DNA from: Lentibacter sp. XHP0401
GTDB taxonomy: Bacteria > Pseudomonadota > Alphaproteobacteria > Rhodobacterales > Rhodobacteraceae
Assembly (NCBI RefSeq): GCF_025751535.1
Contig: NZ_JAOWLC010000012.1
Coordinates: 62,001 to 126,000, forward strand
DNA length: 64,000 bases
Direction: 5' to 3'
Shown: positions 1 to 45,493 of the stretch, in pieces
Layout: the number at the start of each line of letters is the position of its first letter
Numbering within the stretch: the first letter of the stretch is position 1
Notes under the pieces: model-generated
The model's input: only the letters and a program-made list of their open reading frames with translations
Databases searched by the model: none
Told to the model about the DNA's origin: nothing
Position numbers and translations under genes: made by a program

Positions 1-789
1 GGGGCAGGCGGCATGATGCTCCCCAACCACGCGCCGCTCGTTGTCGCCGAGCACTTCGGCACGCTGGCCACATTCTTCCCCGGCAGAATCGACCTTGGCC
101 TTGGCCGCGCACCGGGAACCGATATGGAAACCGCCCGCGCCCTGCGCCGCCATATGGCCCCCGAAGACAGCTTCCCGACCGATGTGCAGGAGCTTATCGC
201 CTACTTTGGCGAGACGTCTTCGGCCCGTGTCCGTGCCATTCCGGGGGAAGGCACCCATGTTCCGGTCTGGATTCTCGGCTCCTCGCTCTACGGCGCACAG
301 CTCGCCGCCATGCTCGGGCTGCCATATGCTTTCGCCTCTCATTTCGCCCCCGCGATGTTGGAGGAAGCGCTCTATATATACCGCCGCAGCTTCCGCCCCT
401 CGGTCCACCTTGAGGCGCCCTACACCATGGTCGCCGCAGGTGCCTGCGCCGCTGATACCGATGAAGAGGCGGCGTATCTTCGCACGTCACAGCTGCTCGC
501 CTTTGCCCGCCTGCGCACAGGCAAGCCCGGCAAGCTGCCGCTTCCCGTTGAAAATGTTGAGGCCGAAATCCCGCCGCAAATTCTCGCGGGCGTGCATCAG
601 GCGCTTGGTTGCTCGGCCACGGGCGCGCCCGAAGCGGTCAAATCACAACTTGCTGCGATCATGGATCAGCACAAACCCGATGAACTTATGGTCACAGGTA
701 TGATCCACGATCACGCTGCGCGGGTTAAATCCTTCCAGATCGTTGCGAAAGCGCTCAAATCTCTCCAAGACGACCGCGCGCTGGCTTAA
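1..789 (+). CDS. LLM-class flavin-dependent oxidoreductase, N-terminus cut off
   Basis: The open frame runs in from the left edge, so the true start lies upstream; about 262 residues are visible. The segment [20 protein letters not shown] followed by [15 protein letters not shown] is typical of the luciferase-like monooxygenase family (MsnO8-type subgroup), which uses reduced flavin on small organic substrates. Family members are roughly 330-340 residues, so about 70-75 N-terminal residues are probably missing. The substrate cannot be read from the sequence. It converges on the polyprenyl synthase gene across a 180-bp gap that holds the GTGCAC repeat element. Confidence 0.85.
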
Positions 790-851
790 CCGTTCCGTAT
801 GGGGCGGGCGAGCCCACCAGCCACAGCCAACCTCCGCGCGCTCCGTTATCT

Positions 852-954
852 TAATTTATCTTAACTTTTAGTGATTCACGCGGTGCACGCAGGGTGCACG
901 GGGTGTGCACGCATATCACCCCCCTGGAATCAGCCCCGGATAGCGGCGTTAACC
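852..954 (-). repeat. GTGCAC-triplet intergenic element, copy 1
   Basis: Read on the minus strand from 954: GGTTAA, then GCTGATTCCA (934-925), then three GTGCAC hexamers at 910-905, 899-894 and 888-883 (exactly 11 bp apart), then GTTAAG and AAATTA. It aligns with copy 2 at 31827-31932. The 55-bp core 934-880 matches 31848-31902 at 47 of 55 positions with no gap. It lies in the convergent gap between the flavin oxidoreductase and the polyprenyl synthase. Function unknown. Confidence 0.75.
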
Positions 955-969
955 ATGGCTTACGCTCCG

Positions 970-1989
970 TTAATTGATCCGCGAAACCACGAATTCTGCG
1001 ATTTCGTCGAGCATCTCCCGAACAGGGTGTGCAGGCATCACGGTAAGCGCCGCACGCGCCTTGGCGGCATAGCTCAAAGCATCGTGCCGCGCAGCTTCCA
1101 AAGCGCCATGTTTTTCAAGCAATTCAATGGCTTGCTCAAGGTCTCCGTCGCGCTGGTCACCTTTCTCTATGGTGCGGCTCCAAAAGGCGCGCTCCTCGGC
1201 ATTGGCCAAAGCGACCGCCTTGATAACAGGCAGGGTCAGCTTACGCTCGCGGAAATCATCGCCCACATTTTTACCTGTCGCGCCGGAAAACCCTTTGTAA
1301 TCAAGTAGATCATCCACAATCTGAAAGGCAATCCCAAGCGCGTCCCCATAATCAAACAGCGCTTGCACTTGCGCTTCGGGAGCGCCTGCAATCACTCCGC
1401 CAACCTCTGTCGCCGCCGAGAACAGCGCCGCCGTTTTGCCCCGCACTACCTGCAAATAGATCGCTTCTGTGGTGGCCAGATCTTGCGCCGCCGTCAGCTG
1501 CAAAACCTCGCCTTCCGCAATCGTCGCAGAGGCATTCGCAAGGATATCAAGTACCCGCAAAGAGCCTGTTTCCACCATCAACTGAAACGAGCGTGAAAAC
1601 AGGTAGTCGCCCACAAGGACAGAACTTTTATTGTCCCACAATAGGTTAGCTGTGGGGCGTCCACGCCGTTTCTCGCTTTCGTCCACCACATCGTCATGCA
1701 AAAGCGTGGCTGTATGGATAAACTCCACAGTCGCCGCCAGATGCACATGATAGGGGCCGCCGTAGCCGCAGAGCTCTGCTGCCGCGAGCGTCAGCATGGG
1801 GCGCAAACGCTTGCCGCCGGCCTCGACCAGATGCTGCGTTACCTCAGGAATTCGAGGTGCATGTTCCGAGGCCATCCGCTCGCGGATCAAGACGTTCACC
1901 GCCTCCATGCTTGCAGCCAAATGGGAGGCGAGTTTTTCGTGCGGTTTGTTTGTTGTCTCGTTCAAGCTCTTCACGCTCCCGTCAGACAC
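970..1989 (-). CDS. ispB: Polyprenyl diphosphate synthase (ubiquinone side chain)
   Basis: Class I trans-prenyltransferase that condenses isopentenyl diphosphate units into the long isoprenoid tail of ubiquinone in the cytosol. Both aspartate-rich Mg-binding motifs are present: DDVVD at residues 99-103, followed by the RRGRPTAN stretch, and DDLLD at 226-230. The 339-residue length is normal. Alphaproteobacteria usually make Q10, so decaprenyl synthase (ddsA) is a likely activity, but chain length cannot be read here. The assigned start is GTG with no well-spaced ribosome site, and a second GTG five codons in is equally possible. It is divergent from the DUF2007 gene with only 35 bp between them. 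Confidence 0.9.
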   Translation of the reverse strand: MSDGSVKSLNETTNKPHEKLASHLAASMEAVNVLIRERMASEHAPRIPEVTQHLVEAGGKRLRPMLTLAAAELCGYGGPYHVHLAATVEFIHTATLLHDDVVDESEKRRGRPTANLLWDNKSSVLVGDYLFSRSFQLMVETGSLRVLDILANASATIAEGEVLQLTAAQDLATTEAIYLQVVRGKTAALFSAATEVGGVIAGAPEAQVQALFDYGDALGIAFQIVDDLLDYKGFSGATGKNVGDDFRERKLTLPVIKAVALANAEERAFWSRTIEKGDQRDGDLEQAIELLEKHGALEAARHDALSYAAKARAALTVMPAHPVREMLDEIAEFVVSRIN

Positions 1990-2024
1990 CTCGACATTCG
2001 CCGCCGAATGGTCATATTCACTTT

Positions 2025-2246
2025 ATGAAACAGCTTCTTAGCACAAACAATCTTGCCGATCTGGCCTTCGCCCAAGCTCTGCTTCAGGGCGAGGGTATAG
2101 CCGTGTTTGAAATGGACGTAAATATGAGCGTGCTCGAAGGCAGCATCGGAATTTTCCCGCGCCGTCTGATGGTTGCGGATGATGAGTATGACGACGCCGC
2201 TCAAACCCTGCGCGACAACGGGCTTGAGCCGTATGAGCACGTCTGA
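2025..2246 (+). CDS. DUF2007 family small protein
   Basis: A 73-residue protein. The pattern of an opening segment followed by ALLQGEGIAVFEMD and a closing segment rich in acidic residues (VADDEYDDAAQTLRD) fits DUF2007, a small alpha/beta domain seen in many proteobacteria with no assigned reaction. Its last 14 bases overlap the start of the downstream methyltransferase, which suggests translational coupling. The longer in-frame extension upstream overlaps the divergent ispB gene and is not credible. Confidence 0.75.
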   Translation: MKQLLSTNNLADLAFAQALLQGEGIAVFEMDVNMSVLEGSIGIFPRRLMVADDEYDDAAQTLRDNGLEPYEHV

Positions 2247-2991
2247 GCTCACCCACGATGCCTTTCTGGGCGGGCGCTTAAAGCTTTGGCAACCAAAGCA
2301 GGGCTACCGTGCAGGCGTCGATCCCGTTCTGCTGGCCGCCACTATCTCCGCCAAAGCAGGTGAAAGCGTGCTTGATCTGGGCTGCGGAGCAGGGGCCGCG
2401 GCGCTCTGCCTCGGCACCCGAATTGAAGGCCTGGACCTGCACGGTTTGGAAATTCAACCGTTTTACGCGGATTTGGCGCTGAAAAACGCCTCGGAGAACA
2501 GAATCGCATTAACGGTTCATCGAGGCAACGTTAATGAAATGCCGGCAAGTTTGAAGGAACGGCGCTTTAATCACGTGTTAACCAACCCGCCATATTTTGA
2601 TCGTGGGACAGGTTCCAAGGCGCCCGACGAAGGCCGCGAAACCGCTCTCGGTGGGGCGTCTCTCCCCCTTTGGCTTGAAGCTGCCGCCCGCCGGCTTGCG
2701 CCCAAAGGCTACCTTACGCTGATTTGTCGCACCGAACGTGTGCCAGAGCTTCTGACGGCGCTGCCAGACTATCTCGGCTCAATCGAGCTTTGGCCCATCT
2801 TGCCCCGCACGGAGCAAGCTTCACAACTGGTGCTTTTACGGGCCCGTCATAGCGGAAAAGCCGCTTTTCGCCTTCATGCAGGGCTCGTAATGCACGAAGG
2901 CACGCGGCATATGAGAGACGCTGAAAGCTATGCTCCGAATGTCAGCGCAGTGCTCAGAAATGCAGCCGCATTGCCATTTCCGAAGATTTGA
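2233..2991 (+). CDS. TrmN6-type tRNA/protein N6-adenine methyltransferase family
   Basis: SAM-dependent class I methyltransferase of 252 residues. Motif I is ESVLDLGCGAGAAAL (about residues 44-58) and the amino-methylating NPPYF motif is at 118-122, the signature of N6-adenine or glutamine methylases. The N-terminal GGRLKLWQPKQGYRAGVDPVLLAA is typical of the group that modifies A37 of tRNA1(Val) (YfiC/TrmN6), the most likely target. The ATG at 2233 is chosen because the homologous region begins immediately after it; it overlaps the DUF2007 stop by 14 bases. Substrate assignment is by family only. Confidence 0.8.
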   Translation: MSTSELTHDAFLGGRLKLWQPKQGYRAGVDPVLLAATISAKAGESVLDLGCGAGAAALCLGTRIEGLDLHGLEIQPFYADLALKNASENRIALTVHRGNVNEMPASLKERRFNHVLTNPPYFDRGTGSKAPDEGRETALGGASLPLWLEAAARRLAPKGYLTLICRTERVPELLTALPDYLGSIELWPILPRTEQASQLVLLRARHSGKAAFRLHAGLVMHEGTRHMRDAESYAPNVSAVLRNAAALPFPKI

Positions 2992-3085
2992 CAGCATTTT
3001 ATTGCTCATCCTCTCGCAACTGCGGCGTGACTTATTATGTTTGATATGCTCGACTGAGAACGCAACATATTGAGAGGAGATTGCA

Positions 3086-3259
3086 ATGAGCTTGAACGGA
3101 CACGTAGAAGAACTGAAAAGAAAGCACCAAACCCTCTCCGACCGTGTGGAACTCCTTCAACGCACACCAAGCGCAACAGATTCAGAGATTGCTGAACTGA
3201 AGAAGCAAAAGCTGAAAATTAAAGAACAAATTTCCCGTTTTGAAGCCACGGCTGGCTGA
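3086..3259 (+). CDS. YdcH-like (DUF465) small coiled protein
   Basis: A 57-residue, highly charged protein beginning MSLNGHVEELKRKHQTLSDR and ending in a Lys/Glu-rich stretch, predicted to be alpha-helical or coiled. The HVEELKRKH pattern with a later EIAELKKQKLKIKEQI fits the YdcH/DUF465 family of small proteins of unknown role. A GAGAGGAG ribosome site lies 7 nt before the ATG, and a strong terminator follows at 3282. Confidence 0.8.
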   Translation: MSLNGHVEELKRKHQTLSDRVELLQRTPSATDSEIAELKKQKLKIKEQISRFEATAG

Positions 3260-3281
3260 AACAGGTAATATCTGGCCCACA

Positions 3282-3312
3282 ACGCGCCCCTGAAATTCGG
3301 GGCGCGTTTTTT
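3282..3312 (+). terminator. Rho-independent terminator after the YdcH-like gene
   Basis: Stem ACGCGCCCC (3282-3290) pairs with GGGGCGCGT (3299-3307) around an 8-nt loop, followed by a T run. Confidence 0.9.
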
Positions 3313-3325
3313 AGTTAGACTCACA

Positions 3326-3356
3326 TGAAAAGGCCGCCCCTTTCGGCGCGGCCTTA
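3326..3356 (-). terminator. Terminator of the phaAB unit
   Basis: On the minus strand a GGCCGC...GCGGCC hairpin is followed by TTTTC, about 20 bases after the phaB stop. It lies back to back with the opposite-strand terminator at 3282. Confidence 0.75.
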
Positions 3357-3377
3357 AAGCTCTCTCTTGAAAATGTC

Positions 3378-4100
3378 TTAGACGAAAAACTGCCCGCCAT
3401 TCGCAGAGATTGTGGACCCGTTGATAAAGCCCGCATCATCGGAGGCAAGGAAGGCCACGCAGCGCGCGATTTCTTCGGGCTCACCAAGACGACCTGCCGG
3501 AATCTGGCCAATAATGGATTCCCGGACTTTTTCAGGAACTGCCATAACCATTTCAGTCGCAATATAACCCGGGCAAATCGCATTTGCCGTGATGCCCGCG
3601 CGCGCGCCCTCTTGGGCGAGTGACTTCACGATACCAAGATCACCTGCTTTGGTCGCTGCATAGTTGACTTGAGCAAACTGCCCCTTCTGACCGTTGATGG
3701 AACTGATAACAATTACGCGGCCAAACTTGCGCTCGCGCATACCGTTCCAGACAGGGTGCACTGTGTTAAAAACGCCAGTCAGGTTGGTGTCGATCACCTC
3801 GTGCCATTGCTGTGGTGTCATCTTGTGAAACGGCGCATCACGGGTGATGCCCGCATTGGCGACGACCACATCGACAGGCCCGACTTCGGCTTCGACCTTG
3901 GCGATACCCGCAACAGATTCGTCATAGTCTGCTACGTTCCACTTGTAGGTTTTGATGCCGGTTTCAGCAGTAAACGCCGCTGCCGCTTCATCGTTGCCAG
4001 CATAGGTTGCAGCCACATTGTAGCCTTCCGCCTTAAGCGCTTTTGAAATTGCCGCGCCAATTCCGCGTGAGCCGCCCGTGACCAGTGCCGTTCGTGCCAT
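3378..4100 (-). CDS. phaB: Acetoacetyl-CoA reductase
   Basis: NADPH-dependent short-chain dehydrogenase of 240 residues that makes (R)-3-hydroxybutyryl-CoA for polyhydroxyalkanoate synthesis. It shows the TGGSRGIG cofactor loop (residues 8-15), the NAG motif (82-84), the catalytic serine pair in VISSINGQKG (133-134) and the Y147/K151 pair in VNYAATKAG. The start ATG at 4100 is preceded by GGAGG; an in-frame ATG five codons earlier would bury that ribosome site and is rejected. It lies 160 bp downstream of phaA on the same strand. No PHA synthase (phaC) is in the window. Confidence 0.93.
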   Translation of the reverse strand: MARTALVTGGSRGIGAAISKALKAEGYNVAATYAGNDEAAAAFTAETGIKTYKWNVADYDESVAGIAKVEAEVGPVDVVVANAGITRDAPFHKMTPQQWHEVIDTNLTGVFNTVHPVWNGMRERKFGRVIVISSINGQKGQFAQVNYAATKAGDLGIVKSLAQEGARAGITANAICPGYIATEMVMAVPEKVRESIIGQIPAGRLGEPEEIARCVAFLASDDAGFINGSTISANGGQFFV

Positions 4101-4201
4101 GATGTTTTCCTCCAAGTTTTTGCCAGCGTAATCCTGTTACCCAATTAGTCTATTTTAGGCAATATTATTGCGCAAGCAGATAGGTGGGCATTATGAAATT
4201 G

Positions 4202-4224
4202 GAGCGCCCCCTAAAGAGCGCCCC
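4202..4224 (-). repeat. Short tandem repeat between phaA and phaB
   Basis: The 9-mer GAGCGCCCC occurs at 4202-4210 and again at 4216-4224, separated by CTAAA. It is a direct repeat and not a hairpin, so it does not look like a terminator. Confidence 0.6.
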
Positions 4225-4260
4225 AACTTAGAAAACCAGAATAGTAAACGTGTTGGCCGG

Positions 4261-5436
4261 TTACGGGCGCTCAACACAGAGAGCAACGCCCATGCCGCCA
4301 CCGATGCAGAGGGTCGCAAGACCTTTTTTCGCGCCCCGGCGCTGCATTTCAAACAACAGCGTGTTGAGAACACGGCAGCCCGAGGCTCCGATCGGATGGC
4401 CAATGGCAATCGCCCCGCCGTTGACGTTTACGATCTCGGGGTCCCAGCCCATCTCTTTGTTTACGGCACATGCTTGAGCAGCGAAGGCCTCGTTGGCTTC
4501 GACAAGGTCCAGATCACTCACGCTCCAGCCGGCTTTGTCGAGTGCTTTACGGCTTGCATAAACTGGGCCGACACCCATGATGGACGGGTCGAGACCGACG
4601 GTTGCGTAAGACGCAATGCGCGCGAGTGGCTCAATGCCGCGTTTTTCGGCATTGTTAGCGCTCATCAAAAGAACACCAGCTGCACCATCATTGAGGCCCG
4701 AAGCGTTGGCCGCTGTTACTGAACCGTCTTTGGTAAAGGCGGGGCGCAATTTTTGCATGGCCTCCATTGTTGCGCCGTGGCGGATGTATTCGTCCGCATC
4801 GACAACGATGTCACCTTTTCGTGTCTTAACCGTAAATGCCGCGATCTCGTCAGCAAATTTGCCAGCTTTTTGGGCCGCTTCGGCCTTGTTTTGTGAGGCG
4901 ACAGCAAATCTGTCTTGCTCATCGCGGCTGATTTGCCATTTCTCAGCAACGTTTTCGGCTGTCTGGCCCATGTGGTAGCCGTTAAAGGCATCCCAAAGAC
5001 CGTCACGGATCATGCTGTCAATATAGCTGACATCGCCCATTTTCGTTCCGTTGCGCAGATGTGCGACGTGGGGGCTGAGCGACATGCTTTCTTGCCCGCC
5101 AGCCGCCACGATATCGGCATCGCCCAGTTGAATATGTTGTGCGCCGAGAGCCACGGCGCGAAGCCCCGAGCCGCAGACCTGATTGATGCTCCAGGCAGAG
5201 CTCTCGATCGGAAGGCCAGCGTTGACATGGGCTTGGCGAGCAGGGTTTTGCCCTTGTCCGGCGGTGAGAACCTGCCCGAGAATAGTTTCGGAGACTTCAT
5301 CCTTTTCAATGCCTGCGCGCTCGACGATGGCTTGCAAGACAGCTGCGCCAAGGTCATGCGCGGGGGTATTGGCAAACGAGCCAGTGAAAGAGCCAACCGC
5401 GGTGCGGGCGGCAGAGGCGATTACGACGTTGGTCAT
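4261..5436 (-). CDS. phaA: Acetyl-CoA C-acetyltransferase (beta-ketothiolase)
   Basis: Thiolase of 391 residues that condenses two acetyl-CoA to acetoacetyl-CoA, the first step toward PHB, and can also run in reverse. The nucleophilic Cys is C88 in [11 protein letters not shown]. The second catalytic pair is H347 in GHPIGASG and C377 in LCIGGGMG. The start at [12 protein letters not shown] is chosen by family alignment; the open frame continues 26 codons upstream into non-conserved sequence. It is transcribed toward phaB. Confidence 0.94.
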
Positions 5437-5551
5437 GACGTTCCTTTCCCATGAAAAAGCCCAGTCGCACCTGCGGCCAGAGCTGTTGGGCAAGGCATAT
5501 CTTATTTGTTTCAACGCGACAACATACCAGGGCAGGCGAAGCGACGCAGGG

Positions 5552-6391
5552 TCAGGCGCGCCGCGATTCTGGTTCGGGGCGCTCCCATACCGGTCTTACC
5601 GTGGGTGCGGCGAAGTAGTAGCCTTGCAGGCAGTTGATGCCCATTTCAGCAAGGAAAGCAGCATCTTCGCGGTTTTCTACGAACTCGGCGACTGTAAGCA
5701 TATCGAACTGCTCGGCAATTGCTTGTAGCGCACCGGTAAGCACCTGATTGTCGTGGTTCTGGCTGATTCCGCGAATGAACTGCCCGTCAATTTTGAGTAT
5801 GTCGAAGTAGAAATCGCGTAAGTAGCGGAAGGATGTATAGCCAGCGCCAAAGTCATCAAGCGCGAAACTAACCCCCTTGGATTGCAGATCGCTCATGAAA
5901 GTGACCACCAGCTCAGGCACGGTCATGGCCGAACTTTCTGTGATTTCGAGAATCAGGCGCTCGCCCACTGTGGCGTTGCGCTGCAGACCTTGTCGCAAAG
6001 TGCGCATCCAGCGCGGATAGCCGATGGAGCGCGCGGACATGTTGATGGAGAGGCGCAACTCGTGTTGGTGGGCGAGGGTGCGCAGGCCCTTCTCCAGAGC
6101 GATGCAATCCATGATGCGGCCGAGCTCTGTTGTCTCGATTTCGGTGATGAACTCTTTGGCTGGAATGATCCGCCCAGTCTCGTCCGTCAGGCGCAGAAGG
6201 GCTTCATAAAAAGCTATCTTATCAGGTGCTTTTGCCTGAACGATTGGTTGGTAGGCGAGCAAAACCTGCTTGTTGCGGAGGGCGATTTCGACCATTTGCA
6301 TGACTGATTTGTCGCGGGCTGCGACCGCGTAACCAAGCGGATTGATGGCTTCGTTGGCAGTAGCCTTGTAAAGCTTGTTTCTGTTGTTCAT
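5552..6391 (-). CDS. EAL-domain cyclic-di-GMP phosphodiesterase, single domain
   Basis: A 279-residue protein that is almost entirely one EAL domain and would hydrolyse cyclic di-GMP to pGpG. Metal and substrate residues are intact: E63-A64-L65 in FYEALLRL, N117 in INMSAR, LEITES (148-153), DDFGAGYTS (179-187), K200, and E236 in VAEFVEN. It has no GGDEF, PAS, receiver or transmembrane segment, so it looks cytosolic and its sensory input is not evident. The usual AEGVE motif reads AEFVE here, a conservative variant. It is alone between phaA and tag. Confidence 0.9.
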
Positions 6392-6510
6392 CGTAGCGCT
6401 CCCACGTGATGCCTGGTGAGCGGGAAGGTTTGCAGCCTATTTGCTAACAAGCGTTTAAGTGGCAGGATCGTCTAAAATTGAGCAGAGCTTTGAAACCGAG
6501 GGAGAAACAC

Positions 6511-7074
6511 GTGGAAAGATGTGGCTGGCACGGGGATGATCCCGAGTATGTGAGGTATCATGACGAGGAGTGGGGCGTGCCCGAACGGGACAGCCGCGCG
6601 CTTTGGGAAAAGCTCGTGCTTGACGGCTTTCAGGCGGGGCTGAGCTGGCTTACGATCCTGCGCAAACGTGATAATTTCCGTGAGGCTTTTCATGAGTTTA
6701 ACCCAGAAATAATTGCCGAGTGGGGCGAGGATGATGTGCTGCGATTGCTGGCGAACGAGGGCATCATTCGCCATCGTGGCAAGATCGAGGCGACGATCAC
6801 AAATGCCCGTGCTTATCTTGAAATCGAAGCCACTGAAGGCTTCTCGACCTACTGCTGGAGCTTTGTTGGCGGGGAGCCTTTGCACAACGTCTGGGGGCGT
6901 TTGGGAGAGGTTCCGCCGCAGACGGAAATCTCGCAAAAATTTTCCAAAGATTTGAAGAAACGTGGGTTTAAATTTTGTGGGCCGACTATTGTTTATGCAT
7001 GGATGGAGGCTTGCGGGCTTGTGAATGATCACCTCACAACCTGTTTTCGGCATGACGAGGTCAAACGTCTTTAG
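6511..7074 (+). CDS. tag: DNA-3-methyladenine glycosylase I
   Basis: Constitutive base-excision repair enzyme that removes 3-methyladenine from alkylated DNA; 187 residues. The zinc-binding set C4, H17, H174 and C178 matches the family pattern. The GTG at 6511 is chosen because it yields the conserved MERCGW opening and is preceded by GGGAG; a TTG at 6478 is in frame but weaker. Position 38, Glu in the E. coli enzyme, is Asp here (LDGFQAGLSW). Confidence 0.92.
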   Translation: MERCGWHGDDPEYVRYHDEEWGVPERDSRALWEKLVLDGFQAGLSWLTILRKRDNFREAFHEFNPEIIAEWGEDDVLRLLANEGIIRHRGKIEATITNARAYLEIEATEGFSTYCWSFVGGEPLHNVWGRLGEVPPQTEISQKFSKDLKKRGFKFCGPTIVYAWMEACGLVNDHLTTCFRHDEVKRL

Positions 7075-7106
7075 GCGGCGACGCGACCGTGTGGCAAGCA
7101 GTATGG

Positions 7107-7125
7107 CAACCTGTAGGGCAGGTTG
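7107..7125. other. Hairpin between tag and the threonine aldolase gene
   Basis: CAACCTG (7107-7113) and CAGGTTG (7119-7125) form a perfect 7-bp stem with a TAGGG loop in the convergent gap. Neither strand has a T run, so it is at best a weak terminator. Confidence 0.45.
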
Positions 7126-7171
7126 TATGGACAGTGGAAGACGTTTTGAGCGCTAAGATATGCTCTGCGCT

Positions 7172-8218
7172 TCAGCCTTTGGCAGTGCCCACAAATGCAT
7201 CAATTAGCTCTTCGGTGATCGACCAGTCGCAGACCAGACGGCAGGGCAAAGGCTCATCCGCATCTCCGATGTCTACATCACCCGCGAGCACATAGTAGCG
7301 CGCCCCGGCTGCGGCGAGGCGTTGATGTGCGGCGCGAGGCAATTCGGCGAAGATGATGTTGGCATCGGGCCGGTTGGTGATCCGCGCACCTGCAACTTCA
7401 TTGAGACCCGCAGCCAGCCGTGCGCAGTTGGCGTTGGCCTGTTTGGCGGAAGTGAGCCAGAGATCATTGATCAGATAGGCCAGCATCTGCGCCGAGAGGT
7501 AGCGGTGTTTGGAGAACAGATGCGCCCCCCGTTTGCGGCGCAATTCGAATTCCCATGCTTTGGCCGGGTCAAAGAAGATAACCGCTTCAACGCCCATGCA
7601 GCCATTCTTAGTGCCGCCGAAGGACACAACATCAACGCCGGATTTCCATGTCATCTCGGCGGCTGTGCAGCCGAGAGCCGCTTGCGCATTGGCAAAGCGC
7701 GCGCCGTCAAGATGCACGCCAAGGCCGTAGGATTTTGCCACATCAGCCAGAGCCTTGATTTCGGCAAGGGTGTGCACCGCGCCGCGCTCGGTCACCTGGG
7801 TGATCGAGACGGGGCCGCGCTGCGGGCCGTGAACGCCGCGGGTTTGTTCTGATTCGATGCTGGCGCGCAGGGCGTCAGGTGTCATCTGGTCGCTCGTGCC
7901 GACAATCGTAAGCTTCGCCCCGCCCGAGTAGAACTCGGGCGCGTTGCATTCGTCTTCGTGGATGTGGGCTGTAGGTGAGCAAAACACCGTCTCGTAAGGC
8001 GCGCACATGGTGGCCAGCGCCAGCGAGTTTGCCGCTGTGCCCGTGGCGACAAGGTAGACAGCCGCGTCCGGTGCTTCAAAGAGAGTGCGGATGCGGGCGC
8101 GGACCTCGTCCATGATCGTGTCGGCGCCATATGGCATGGCGTAACCCTCGTTGGCGGCCGATATGGCTGCCATCACTTCGGGGTGGGCGGGGCCGGAATT
8201 GTCGGAGGCAAAAAACAT
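7172..8218 (-). CDS. ltaE: Low-specificity L-threonine aldolase
   Basis: PLP enzyme of 348 residues that cleaves threonine or allo-threonine to glycine and acetaldehyde. The Schiff-base lysine is K204 in VSFGGTKNGCMG, and the PLP-nitrogen aspartate is D171 in HLDGARFANA. It is the third gene of a tight unit ribF-ycgN-ltaE: its ATG shares one base with the ycgN stop (TGATG). The functional link to its neighbours is not obvious beyond cofactor and amino-acid housekeeping. Confidence 0.88.
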   Translation of the reverse strand: MFFASDNSGPAHPEVMAAISAANEGYAMPYGADTIMDEVRARIRTLFEAPDAAVYLVATGTAANSLALATMCAPYETVFCSPTAHIHEDECNAPEFYSGGAKLTIVGTSDQMTPDALRASIESEQTRGVHGPQRGPVSITQVTERGAVHTLAEIKALADVAKSYGLGVHLDGARFANAQAALGCTAAEMTWKSGVDVVSFGGTKNGCMGVEAVIFFDPAKAWEFELRRKRGAHLFSKHRYLSAQMLAYLINDLWLTSAKQANANCARLAAGLNEVAGARITNRPDANIIFAELPRAAHQRLAAAGARYYVLAGDVDIGDADEPLPCRLVCDWSITEELIDAFVGTAKG

Positions 8219-31347: not shown

Positions 31348-31737
31348 TCAGTTGTCTTTCTTCAGGTGGTCACGGATGGAGCCGGCCTTGGGGCTTAGGC
31401 TGGCGTCGATGTCGCGCATTTCCATGGAAAGGGCGATGGAATGTTGGGCCATGGCAGGGGCGAGAAAGCCCTCTAGGGTCTTGAAAATATGAGATACTGC
31501 GGCTTCTTTGGCATCTTGAGGGCGGCCTTCACGCAGGCGGATGCCGAGATCGAGGAAGGCGTGCCGGGGGTCGCCATCGGCGATGCTCACGTGATTGGCT
31601 TTGAAGGCTCGGATGCGGATGCCTGCGAGGGGGAAAAGGCCTGTTTCGATGGCCGCGAGGCGGAGCACATCAAGCAGCGCCGGCATATCAACGTGCTCTT
31701 CAAGGTTTGCCGAATATTCTATGGAAAAGTGCGGCAT
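31348..31737 (-). CDS. hpaF: 5-carboxymethyl-2-hydroxymuconate delta-isomerase
   Basis: A 129-residue tautomerase-superfamily enzyme; after removal of Met the catalytic Pro is exposed (MPHFSIEYSANLE). It converts the hydroxymuconate to 5-oxo-pent-3-ene-1,2,5-tricarboxylate. First gene of the operon hpaF-E-D-cupin-G-H. Its promoter and a 24-bp operator lie 17-60 bases upstream of the start. The pathway's aldolase (hpaI), monooxygenase (hpaBC) and regulator are not in the window. Confidence 0.9.
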   Translation of the reverse strand: MPHFSIEYSANLEEHVDMPALLDVLRLAAIETGLFPLAGIRIRAFKANHVSIADGDPRHAFLDLGIRLREGRPQDAKEAAVSHIFKTLEGFLAPAMAQHSIALSMEMRDIDASLSPKAGSIRDHLKKDN

Positions 31738-31793: not shown

Positions 31794-31826
31794 GTCTGAA
31801 GTGAATATTACGGCTGCGCACCGCTT

Positions 31827-31932
31827 GGTTAAGAGCGGGGGAAGGCCGCTGATTCCACGGGGGCGATAAGCGTGCACAGGGCGTGCACCCCCCGTGCACC
31901 GCTAAAACCCCGTAGCTGTTAAGGGAAAATTA
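31827..31932 (+). repeat. GTGCAC-triplet intergenic element, copy 2
   Basis: GGTTAA (31827), GCTGATTCCA (31848-31857), GTGCAC at 31872, 31883 and 31894 (11-bp steps), then CTAAAA, GTTAAG and AAATTA. It matches copy 1 (852-954, opposite strand) at 47 of 55 core positions. It lies between the hpa promoter and the 3' end of metG. Confidence 0.75.
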
Positions 31933-31973
31933 GCTAATGCGGCGCACGGTGGGGACGTGAAATAGAGAAGGAG

Positions 31974-33686
31974 TTATGTGCGGATGCCCGAAAATTTGGC
32001 GGCCCAGGTTTCACGCTCTTCATCGGTGATTTTGGCAAAGAGGTTGTCCGGAACGGAGAACTCGTGGCCCGCTTCCAGGCTGCCGAGGCTTGCGCGCAGA
32101 TCATCGGGCCAGCTTGTATCAAGTGTGTTCATCGCGGTGAAAAGCTTTGCCGAGGCTGTCGGAATGAAGGGAGCAGACAGAACCGCATAAAGGCGGATGA
32201 GATTGAGCGCGAGACGGATTTGTGCGGCGGCCTTGTCCTCGTCTGTTTTGAAGACGCTCCACGGAGCGGCCTCTTGCAGATATTCATTGCCGGCGGCCCA
32301 GATGGCGCGCAGTTCGGCAGCTGATTTGCGCACGTCCATCGCCTCCATGTGTTGCTCGTAAGCACGGATGCGAACCTCGATGTCGGCGATGAGCGCGTCT
32401 TCAGTCGGGCCGTATTCACCGGCGCTCGGGACAGTTTCGCCGAACTTGGAGCGGCAGAACTTGGTGACGCGGGAGACGAAATTGCCCAGCACATCGGAGA
32501 GGTCTTTGTTCACCGAGGCTTGGAAGTTTTCCCATGTGAACTCGGCGTCCGAGCTTTCGGGCGCGTGAGACAGGAGCCACCAGCGCCAGACATCGGCGGG
32601 CAGGATATCGAGCGCCTGATCCTGAAATACGCCACGGCCACGGGAGGTGCTGAACTGACCGCCTTCGTAATTGAGGTAGTTGAAGGATTTGATGTAATCG
32701 ACAAGCTTCCAAGGTTCGCCCGAGCCCAGAATGGTGGCGGGGAAAGAGAGCGTATGGAAAGGGACGTTATCCTTGCCCATGAACTGGGTGTAGGTGACAT
32801 CATCGGCGCCTTTGTCGGTGCGCCACCAGCGCTCCCAGTCGCGGCCCTGTCCTGCATCGGCCCATTCCTGCGCGCAGGCGATATACTCGATGGGGGCGTC
32901 AAACCAGACGTAGAAGACCTTGCCTTCCATGCCGGGCCAATCCTCGGTTCCGCGCTTGACGGGGATGCCCCAGTTGAGATCGCGGGTGATGCCACGGTCT
33001 TGCAGGCCGTCGCCGTCATTGAGCCATTTGTTGGCGATGGAGGTTGTGAGGACGGGCCAGTCTGTTTTGCTGTTGATCCAGTCTTGCAACTGCTCGCGCA
33101 TGTTTGATTGCTTGAGGTAGAGGTGCTTGGTTTCGCGTTCTTCCAGATCGGTGGCGCCCGAGACGGAGGAGCGCGGATTGATCAGATCGGTCGGGTCGAG
33201 TTGTTTGGTGCAGTTGTCGCATTGATCGCCGCGGGCATCTTCAAAGCCGCAGTTGGGGCAGGTGCCTTCAATGTAGCGATCCGGCAGGAAGCGGCCATCG
33301 GCCGGGGAGTAGATCTGTTTTTCTGTGACCTCTTCGATGAGGCCCGCTTTATAGAGCGCGCCTGCGAAGTGTTGTGTGAGCGCGTGGTTTTGCGCACTGG
33401 ACGAGCGGCCGAAGTGATCAAACGAGAGCCCGAAGCCTTTGGCGATATTGGCCTGGACCTCGTGCATTTCGGCGCAGAAGTCGGCGACGGGTTTGCCGGC
33501 TTTGGCGGCGGCGAGTTCGGCGGGCGTTCCGTGTTCATCGGTGGCGCAGAGGAAGAGCACCTCATGGCCGCGCTGGCGCAGGTAGCGGGCGTAAAGATCG
33601 GCTGGGAGCTGGGAGCCGACGAGGTTGCCCAGATGTTTGATCCCGTTGATGTAGGGGATTGCCGAGGTGATGAGGTGACGTGCCAT
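31974..33686 (-). CDS. metG: Methionyl-tRNA synthetase
   Basis: Class I synthetase of 570 residues. The HIGH-like motif is [13 protein letters not shown] (residues 13-25). A single zinc knuckle [17 protein letters not shown] lies near residue 140. The KMSKS loop reads [11 protein letters not shown]. The anticodon-binding helical domain follows and there is no C-terminal tRNA-binding extension. The ATG is followed by [13 protein letters not shown], a standard opening. Confidence 0.95.
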
Positions 33687-45418: not shown

Positions 45419-45493
45419 TGGTACCCCGTAGGGGAGTCGAACCCCTCTTTTCAGGTTGAAAACCTGACGTCCTAACCGATAGACGAACGGGGC
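45419..45493 (-). tRNA. tRNA-Glu (anticodon TTC), with encoded CCA
   Basis: On the minus strand: acceptor GCCCCGT pairs with ACGGGGT (one G-T wobble), the D arm is TCGTCTATCGGTTAGGA, the anticodon stem TCAGG/CCTGA holds the loop TTTTCAA (anticodon TTC), and the T arm is GAGGGGTTCGACTCCCCT. Discriminator A and CCA follow. Confidence 0.95.

Follow-up and report, generated by a model that had tools for sequence, protein, structure and literature searches.

A strand-polar intergenic array dispersed over Lentibacter chromosomes and spelled differently among relatives: a candidate chromosome-maintenance site of Rhodobacterales

The stretch of DNA analyzed here (the window, 64 kb of the Lentibacter sp. 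XHP0401 genome) contained two copies of an intergenic element with an exact GTGCAC-N5-GTGCAC-N5-GTGCAC core, located at 883-910 on the minus strand and at 31872-31899 on the plus strand. Copy 1 (827-956, minus strand, about 130 bp, delimited by an alignment of 83 copies and by the open reading frames) was found between convergent genes encoding a luciferase-like monooxygenase (13-789, plus strand) and a polyprenyl synthetase (970-1989, minus strand). Copy 2 (31826-31955, plus strand) was found between the 3' end of metG, encoding methionyl-tRNA ligase (31974-33686, minus strand), and the next gene, encoding 5-carboxymethyl-2-hydroxymuconate isomerase (CHMI; 31348-31737, minus strand). The monooxygenase, synthetase, and isomerase genes are given as context only, and metG served in the comparison of orthologous sites. 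Additionally, a tRNA gene (45422-45493, minus strand) was the sole Rfam match in the window.

The two copies are 31 kb apart in opposite orientation, and their counterparts in another genome of the genus, G001, are likewise opposite at a distance of 24 kb. Over about 130 bp, both copies have in common a left GGTTAA, TGATTC, a G-run followed by TGATATGC or CGATAAGC, then the box triplet, and finally a right arm of the form GTTAAG...AAATTA...GCG. The original prediction had described a repeat in opposite orientation with shared GGTTAA and GTTAAG...AAATTA flanks, which the alignment confirmed. Its alignment of about 105 bp held for both copies, but the true length is greater (about 130 bp). The repeat is real rather than a product of chance, because the exact triplet occurs twice in the window, versus 0.06 triplet matches expected from shuffled windows with three mismatches allowed; genome-wide, 63 matches with up to three mismatches were obtained, versus two for the reversed control.

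Reading along its own strand, copy 1 begins with a left GGTTAACG motif (947-954) and a unit at 916-932 that holds GATTC (a GANTC site, 927-931), the G-run, and a degenerate box 0, GGGTGA (916-921), as assigned by the position matrix at register -21. Boxes 1, 2, and 3 (905-910, 894-899, and 883-888, all GTGCAC) follow in 11-bp steps, then a second GANTC (GAATC, 873-877) directly after the array, which only a minority of copies have, and the right arm GTTAAGATAAATTAAGATAACGGAGCGCGCGG.. (832-865). Copy 2 has the same order on the plus strand, with a unit at 31850-31866 containing GATTC (31851-31855), the G-run, and a degenerate box 0, GGGCGA (31861-31866), boxes 1 to 3 at 31872-31877, 31883-31888, and 31894-31899, and the right arm GTTAAGGGAAAATTAGCTAATGCGGCGCACGGTG (31918-31951).

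The position matrix, built from 83 copies (51 from G001 and 32 from the genome of the window, hereafter the own genome), gave the core GGGGGGTGAWAWGC-GTGCAC-MMNSC-GTGCAC-MMNSC-GTGCACCGCC. Since the boxes are direct repeats of CGTGCACM, the array has a direction even though each box is palindromic. Because GGCAC or GTGCAC precedes box 1 in some copies of other genera, GGGTGA was interpreted as box 0 in degenerate form, TGATTC lying one step to its left. The right arm, with the consensus GTTAACGGAAAATTAGTTAATGCAGCGTGCGGTG, was detected above 15 bits beside 33 of the 51 G001 cores. In 1.19 Mb of G001 (60 stretches, mostly chosen around cores), all 33 right arms adjoin a core in the same orientation, no two GTGCAC words at an 11-bp step were found outside the elements, and single GTGCAC words numbered 176 versus 249 expected.

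The proposed GANTC site, the target of CcrM methylation, proved to be enriched at a single register (-21), which holds it in 20 of the 32 own-genome copies and 27 of the 51 from G001, a fixed register being expected of a CcrM-regulated site. The 119 other offsets averaged about 0.1 copies, and their maxima (9 and 7) correspond to the right-hand GANTC at +33, while 16 of the 51 G001 copies lack any GANTC. The idea of exactly one GANTC per copy was rejected, since only G001 showed an anti-correlation, and a weak one (p = 0.016), whereas G000 showed none (p = 0.23). Immediately after the GATTC at -21, 24 of 26 G001 copies have T and 19 of 20 own-genome copies have C, and this difference indicates that some features of the core change as a genome-wide set. 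The consensus of CtrA sites is TTAA-N7-TTAA. The suggested CtrA half-sites found no backing, given that this arrangement occurs to the right of the array in only one of 83 copies, versus 17 copies for TTAA-N7-TTAG and 18 for TTAA-N6-TTAA. A structured RNA was also considered and discarded; RNAalifold returned no compensated pair, the consensus fold having eight weak pairs with no covariation, and Rfam gave only the tRNA in the window. GTAG is absent from the element consensus.

The own genome (3.7 Mb) harbored about 57 oriented copies according to a general pattern with one mismatch. The same pattern gave 51 copies in G001, 60 in G002, 50 in G004 (85% complete), four in G006, two in G003, and none in G005, with no reversed-control match in any of the seven members of the genus. 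By our own gene calls, every one of the 51 G001 copies is intergenic, with 19 in convergent, 27 in tandem, and five in divergent gaps. Compared with the 425 G001 gaps of at least 100 bp (66 convergent, 223 tandem, and 136 divergent), convergent gaps are enriched (p = 0.0004) and divergent gaps are depleted (p = 0.0006), the latter suggesting that promoters are avoided. In tandem settings, 13 arrays run along the genes and 14 against them, and the genes of the same stretches divide into 613 leading and 548 lagging; gene direction thus does not explain the polarity of the arrays. In this one genome, the spacing (mean of 64 kb) is more even than random (coefficient of variation of 0.67 versus 0.97, P = 0.0002). 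The density shows no gradient, with 7, 8, 8, 4, 6, 9, 5, and 4 copies in successive eighths from origin to terminus.

In G001, which is a single contig, the arrays run plus between 3.02 and 1.39 Mb (across zero) and minus between 1.53 and 2.94 Mb, apart from six exceptions. Because the GC skew switches at roughly these points, the origin was placed at about 2.98 Mb and the terminus at about 1.46 Mb by skew only. By replichore, 45 of the 51 copies lie on the leading strand with the G-run first, and 49 of 51 agree with the local 10-kb GC skew calculated with the element itself excluded, including two with skews of -0.001 and -0.002. Local skews at the six replichore exceptions are +0.03 and +0.06 (reversed), -0.001 and -0.002 (nil), -0.006, and -0.058 (a clear disagreement). 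The existence of these six copies means that reversed copies are tolerated, and one of them is the counterpart of copy 1 of the window. Within the window, the skew is near zero at 1-8000, around copy 1, about +0.12 over 24000-64000, and about +0.13 around copy 2. The near-zero skew at the left end, together with the opposite arrays, suggests that copy 1 may adjoin an old inversion border. No match to the parS consensus with up to one mismatch was found in the examined part of G001, and no origin marker was found among the 29 genes at 2.96-3.03 Mb, which include polysaccharide genes and others.

Agreement with the skew was also found elsewhere, counting copies of unambiguous direction: 32 of 32 in the own genome (mostly 3-kb loci), 14 of 14 in G002, 9 of 10 in G230, 9 of 10 in G017, and 6 of 7 in G024. 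Named loci, several of which come from one species, agreed in 60 of 71 cases, and in 54 of 55 where the absolute skew exceeded 0.03. Genomes with other spellings of the core gave 8 of 9 (G093), 7 of 9 (G363), 1 of 1 (G286), 4 of 4 (G161), 3 of 3 (G322), 4 of 4 (G291), and 2 of 3 (G216), and two small samples had the contrary orientation (1 of 3 in G121 and 0 of 2 in G114).

Conservation in relatives could be followed locus by locus, with shared loci judged by the homology of neighboring genes. For 29 of the 32 examined own-genome copies and 13 of the 14 examined G002 copies, G001 has a copy at the same locus, with side and orientation matching; for G230, of another genus, this holds for 3 of 10 copies. 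The element is largely vertically kept. Between the own genome and G001, right flanks are more alike in orthologues than in non-orthologues (0.57 versus 0.38), and the likeness of the two spacers is 0.54 and 0.57 in orthologues versus 0.53 and 0.56 in non-orthologues. Spacers are homogenized within G001 (0.72 and 0.75, with AACCC in 28 of 51 first spacers) and not within the own genome (0.52 and 0.54). At the site after metG, G002 has an array, and G003, G005, and G015 have the same next gene and no array, which indicates that loci come and go. In G230, G017, and G024, the neighboring gene is another one and no array was found within 327 bases. Of the 12 genomes in this comparison, the other five (G001, G004, G006, G100, and G009) are excluded, an open frame other than metG being the longest there.

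Loss of the element from G003 and G005 was considered and refuted, as both species carry other dialects. The G003 genome, despite the absence of a GTGCAC triplet at two mismatches, contained 13 copies of TGCCTACNNTATGCAGCNNNNTATGCATAACG... (three mismatches), a core found in none of the six other genus members. Seven of these 13 copies are at array loci of the own genome, G001, or G002 (the match at L380 being less tidy), and five have no counterpart in the compared set. Twelve agree with the skew, and the sole disagreeing copy, L386, adjoins a shared gene in inverted orientation. A right arm above 15 bits, by the matrix from G001 and the own genome, accompanies 6 of the 13 copies (reversed control 0), and only L383 and L390 join the right arm and a shared locus. 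For G005, a search with nothing but the right-arm matrix revealed three arrays of a third spelling in 378 kb (control 0), and nine copies were then counted in 458 kb (control 0), of which two to three are at shared loci and eight agree with the skew. Their composite is GTGCATACCGCA-GTGCATACCACA-GTGCATAATGC-GTGCATACG with steps of 12, 12, and 11 bp, and a right arm above 15 bits accompanies three of the nine. Thus, some copies of each of three dialects have the outer arm, and most G003 and G005 copies lack it. Since other cores exist in the same genus, the GTGCAC triplet represents one of several dialects. Two features that the original prediction had emphasized did not hold up: the GTGCAC palindrome is not the essence of the element, its core being spelled otherwise in related species and in part at the same loci, and strict 11-bp phasing is broken by the G005 steps.

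Across the family, the free-spelling pattern CNTRCAYNNNNCNTRCAYNNNNCNTRCAY matched 38 of 394 genomes (one per genus), with at least three exact matches in 21 of 394, counting overlapping matches in longer arrays more than once; the reversed control gave five matches in four genomes. Another pattern count gave 125 of 394 but includes chance singletons, its controls matching too, which makes the free-spelling count the cleaner one, and a search with model R1 (11 candidates scored per genome) gave at least 24 of 295 genomes. Dialects missed by the pattern may explain part of this patchy distribution. The spellings are mostly genus-specific, namely GTGCAC, GTACAC (G286, G216, and G279), ATGCAC or ATACAY (G363, G093, and G291), GTACAT (G161), and GTGCAT (G121). 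In Paracoccus, loci L115, L125, and L151 seem to represent a further sub-form, in which a word rich in G and TGCA precedes at least four boxes, some GTGCAC and others GTACAC. On one chromosome (G356:C1), CGTGCACGTGTTGTGAACGGATCGTTCA occurs in four identical copies and is likely a repeat of another kind.

Seven plasmid records from Sulfitobacter and Leisingera had one partial match each, covering up to 40% of the query. In the four inspected, the match was intergenic and inside ordinary gene blocks, and the plasmid copies may be chromosomal blocks that were moved to plasmids. The single copies at L309-L312 are on Sulfitobacter and Leisingera plasmids of 120-250 kb, for example between nqrF and a nitronate monooxygenase gene. 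No blastn match to the element was found in phage records. Twenty-five viral contig stretches (L160-L184) hold the exact triplet. In the contig scan, the matches listed were mostly from Rhodobacterales, named contigs of Leisingera and Tateyamaria among them, and the few scattered ones in Streptomyces, Pedobacter, and others look like chance. Among loci L046-L159 (records JAHBAM and JAHBAN), a metagenome-assembled genome labeled Flavobacteriia AQU-04 has contigs with the same names as those of Roseobacter AQU-03 (for example, L093 and L103); the Flavobacteriia label is probably wrong.

We tentatively favor reading the element as a chromosome-maintenance site, that is, a polar landmark or anchor for organizing and segregating new DNA with a fast-evolving putative binding protein, and we consider this quite possible. 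The array would comprise about five head-to-tail units, consisting of the degenerate left unit, the degenerate box 0, and the three full boxes, and a predicted sequence-specific protein would bind these units cooperatively, head to tail. The binding specificity of such a protein would drift quickly between species and drag the sites along. With an array roughly every 60 kb, placed between genes with a preference for gene ends and pointing along replication, a machine traveling from the origin toward the terminus (SMC complexes, a segregation translocase, or the fork) would mostly meet the arrays from the same side, and each array could then serve as a landmark or anchor for newly replicated DNA. 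Since most arrays of an arm face alike and ignore the genes, the partner should travel from origin to terminus. GANTC methylation may play a part as well. A cooperatively bound protein and a link with replication had both been proposed at the outset and are still the best readings, the latter in view of the strand polarity.

The main deflationary alternative is a transposon fossil homogenized by gene conversion, in which remains of a family that moves in single-stranded form on the lagging-strand template, like IS200/IS605 or TnpA-REP elements, would owe their strand bias to insertion. Targeting of the lagging-strand template by single-strand elements is known from the available part of PMC6006769, some sites in relatives lack an array, and the G001 spacers are more alike within the genome than between orthologues, as gene conversion would give. 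Nevertheless, 29 of 32 examined loci are common to two species, other cores occupy some of the same loci, the spacing is more even than random, and the own genome shows no homogenization of its spacers. The consensus provides neither covarying pairs nor GTAG, and since 11-bp GTGCAC pairs are confined to the elements in 1.19 Mb of G001, there are no decaying partial copies of that kind. We regard this origin as rather unlikely, and note that gene conversion without function could be an alternative source of the genome-wide change of the core.

Polar fork barriers of the Tus-Ter kind, distributed along the whole arm so as to pass forks from the origin and stop those running the wrong way, would likewise produce an orientation that is mostly uniform per arm and switches with the GC skew, as expected for permissive barriers; the lack of any concentration near the terminus makes this decidedly unlikely. 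The same flat density bears on a role as loading or orienting sites for FtsK, perhaps through an adaptor protein. The polarity on the leading strand, its switch near the terminus, and the G-rich leading-strand word are as in KOPS, but the length of about 130 bp rather than 8 bp, the number of about 55 copies, and a density that stays flat toward the terminus, unlike that of AIMS/KOPS in the available part of PMC5993296, render this very unlikely. The intergenic position and the operator-like tandem array might also recall an ordinary regulatory element, whether an operator, a terminator, or a small RNA of the adjacent genes. The arrays favor convergent gaps and shun divergent ones, their orientation in G001 does not depend on the genes, Rfam found only the tRNA in the window, covariation is absent, and the monooxygenase, polyprenyl synthetase, metG, and CHMI genes have no common theme, so that local regulation appears extremely improbable.

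Returning to the chromosome-maintenance site, the data suggest an undescribed chromosome-scale system that may be read by a fast-changing DNA-binding protein. A broader proposal, which is possible although doubtful, is that Rhodobacterales have a distributed polar centromere-like system of 50-60 arrays at conserved loci with a co-evolving putative protein, in which the core would have been respelled genome-wide and in place within one genus (from an 11- to a 12-bp step) while the loci, the polarity, and partly the outer arm persisted. Such respelling within one genus would be a rare case in bacteria resembling the centromere-style co-evolution of protein and DNA. To our knowledge, bacteria of this kind seem to lack MatP and Tus, and the arrays touch on the question of how the direction and the domains of a chromosome are marked in such bacteria. 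With about 55 sites that are polar, evenly spaced, and conserved, the arrays provide a directly testable handle, and the list of dialects together with the right arm allows a search for arrays in sequenced marine bacteria.

The element belongs to none of the families for which defining features were tested, and the statement that no named element has this form still stands, in that no description was found in the literature searched, which was mostly without subscription journals. SlmA- and Noc-binding sites are single palindromes without polarity that are depleted near the terminus. The arrays resemble them as tens of dispersed sites for a specific, here putative, protein, and differ in being polar and in showing no depletion at the terminus in the flat G001 density. 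The matS sites are confined to the terminus domain, whereas the arrays, which would similarly be protein-binding sites organizing the chromosome, are spread over the whole G001 chromosome. DNA uptake sequences are about 10 bp long, occur in thousands of copies, and have dialects; a lineage-specific spelling altered genome-wide is common to both, but the present element is about 130 bp long with 50-60 copies. In the OmpR/PhoB family, head-to-tail boxes combine a 7-bp box and a 4-bp spacer into an 11-bp pitch. This pitch offers an analogy for a possible binding mode only, and one dialect differs in having 12-bp steps.

PhaR/AniA, a regulator of PHB, was considered and set aside, as its YGCRNYGCR motif in the available part of PMC12542648 differs from the element. 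REP sequences consist of GTAG plus a hairpin, with about six hundred in E. coli K12 (PMC8266576, available part). Like REPs and BIMEs with TnpA-REP, the present element is short, intergenic, multi-copy, and species-specific, but it has no GTAG hairpin, shares orthologous loci, and is strand-polar. With regard to the subterminal hairpins and the mobility of IS200/IS605-type MITEs, the element has no conserved hairpin and its loci are shared between species. Ter sites, according to the accessible text of PMC8707476, are a few 23-bp sites, six of them bound by Tus in E. coli, and a strong one could not be put in reverse. Both systems have polar sites that reverse their orientation at the terminus, with protein binding being predicted here, but the arrays cover the whole chromosome and have another sequence and an array architecture. 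AIMS/KOPS are 8-bp words of higher copy number, with a density rising toward the terminus (PMC5993296, available part), and the accessible portion of a paper on dif in D. shibae mentions KOPS in general terms only (PMC7901474). The present element differs from them in its arrays of about 130 bp, its 50-60 copies in four genus members, its flat density, and its dialects, and resembles them in its chromosome-wide polarity on the leading strand (in G001, 45 of 51 copies by replichore and 49 by local skew) and in that a moving machine presumably reads it.
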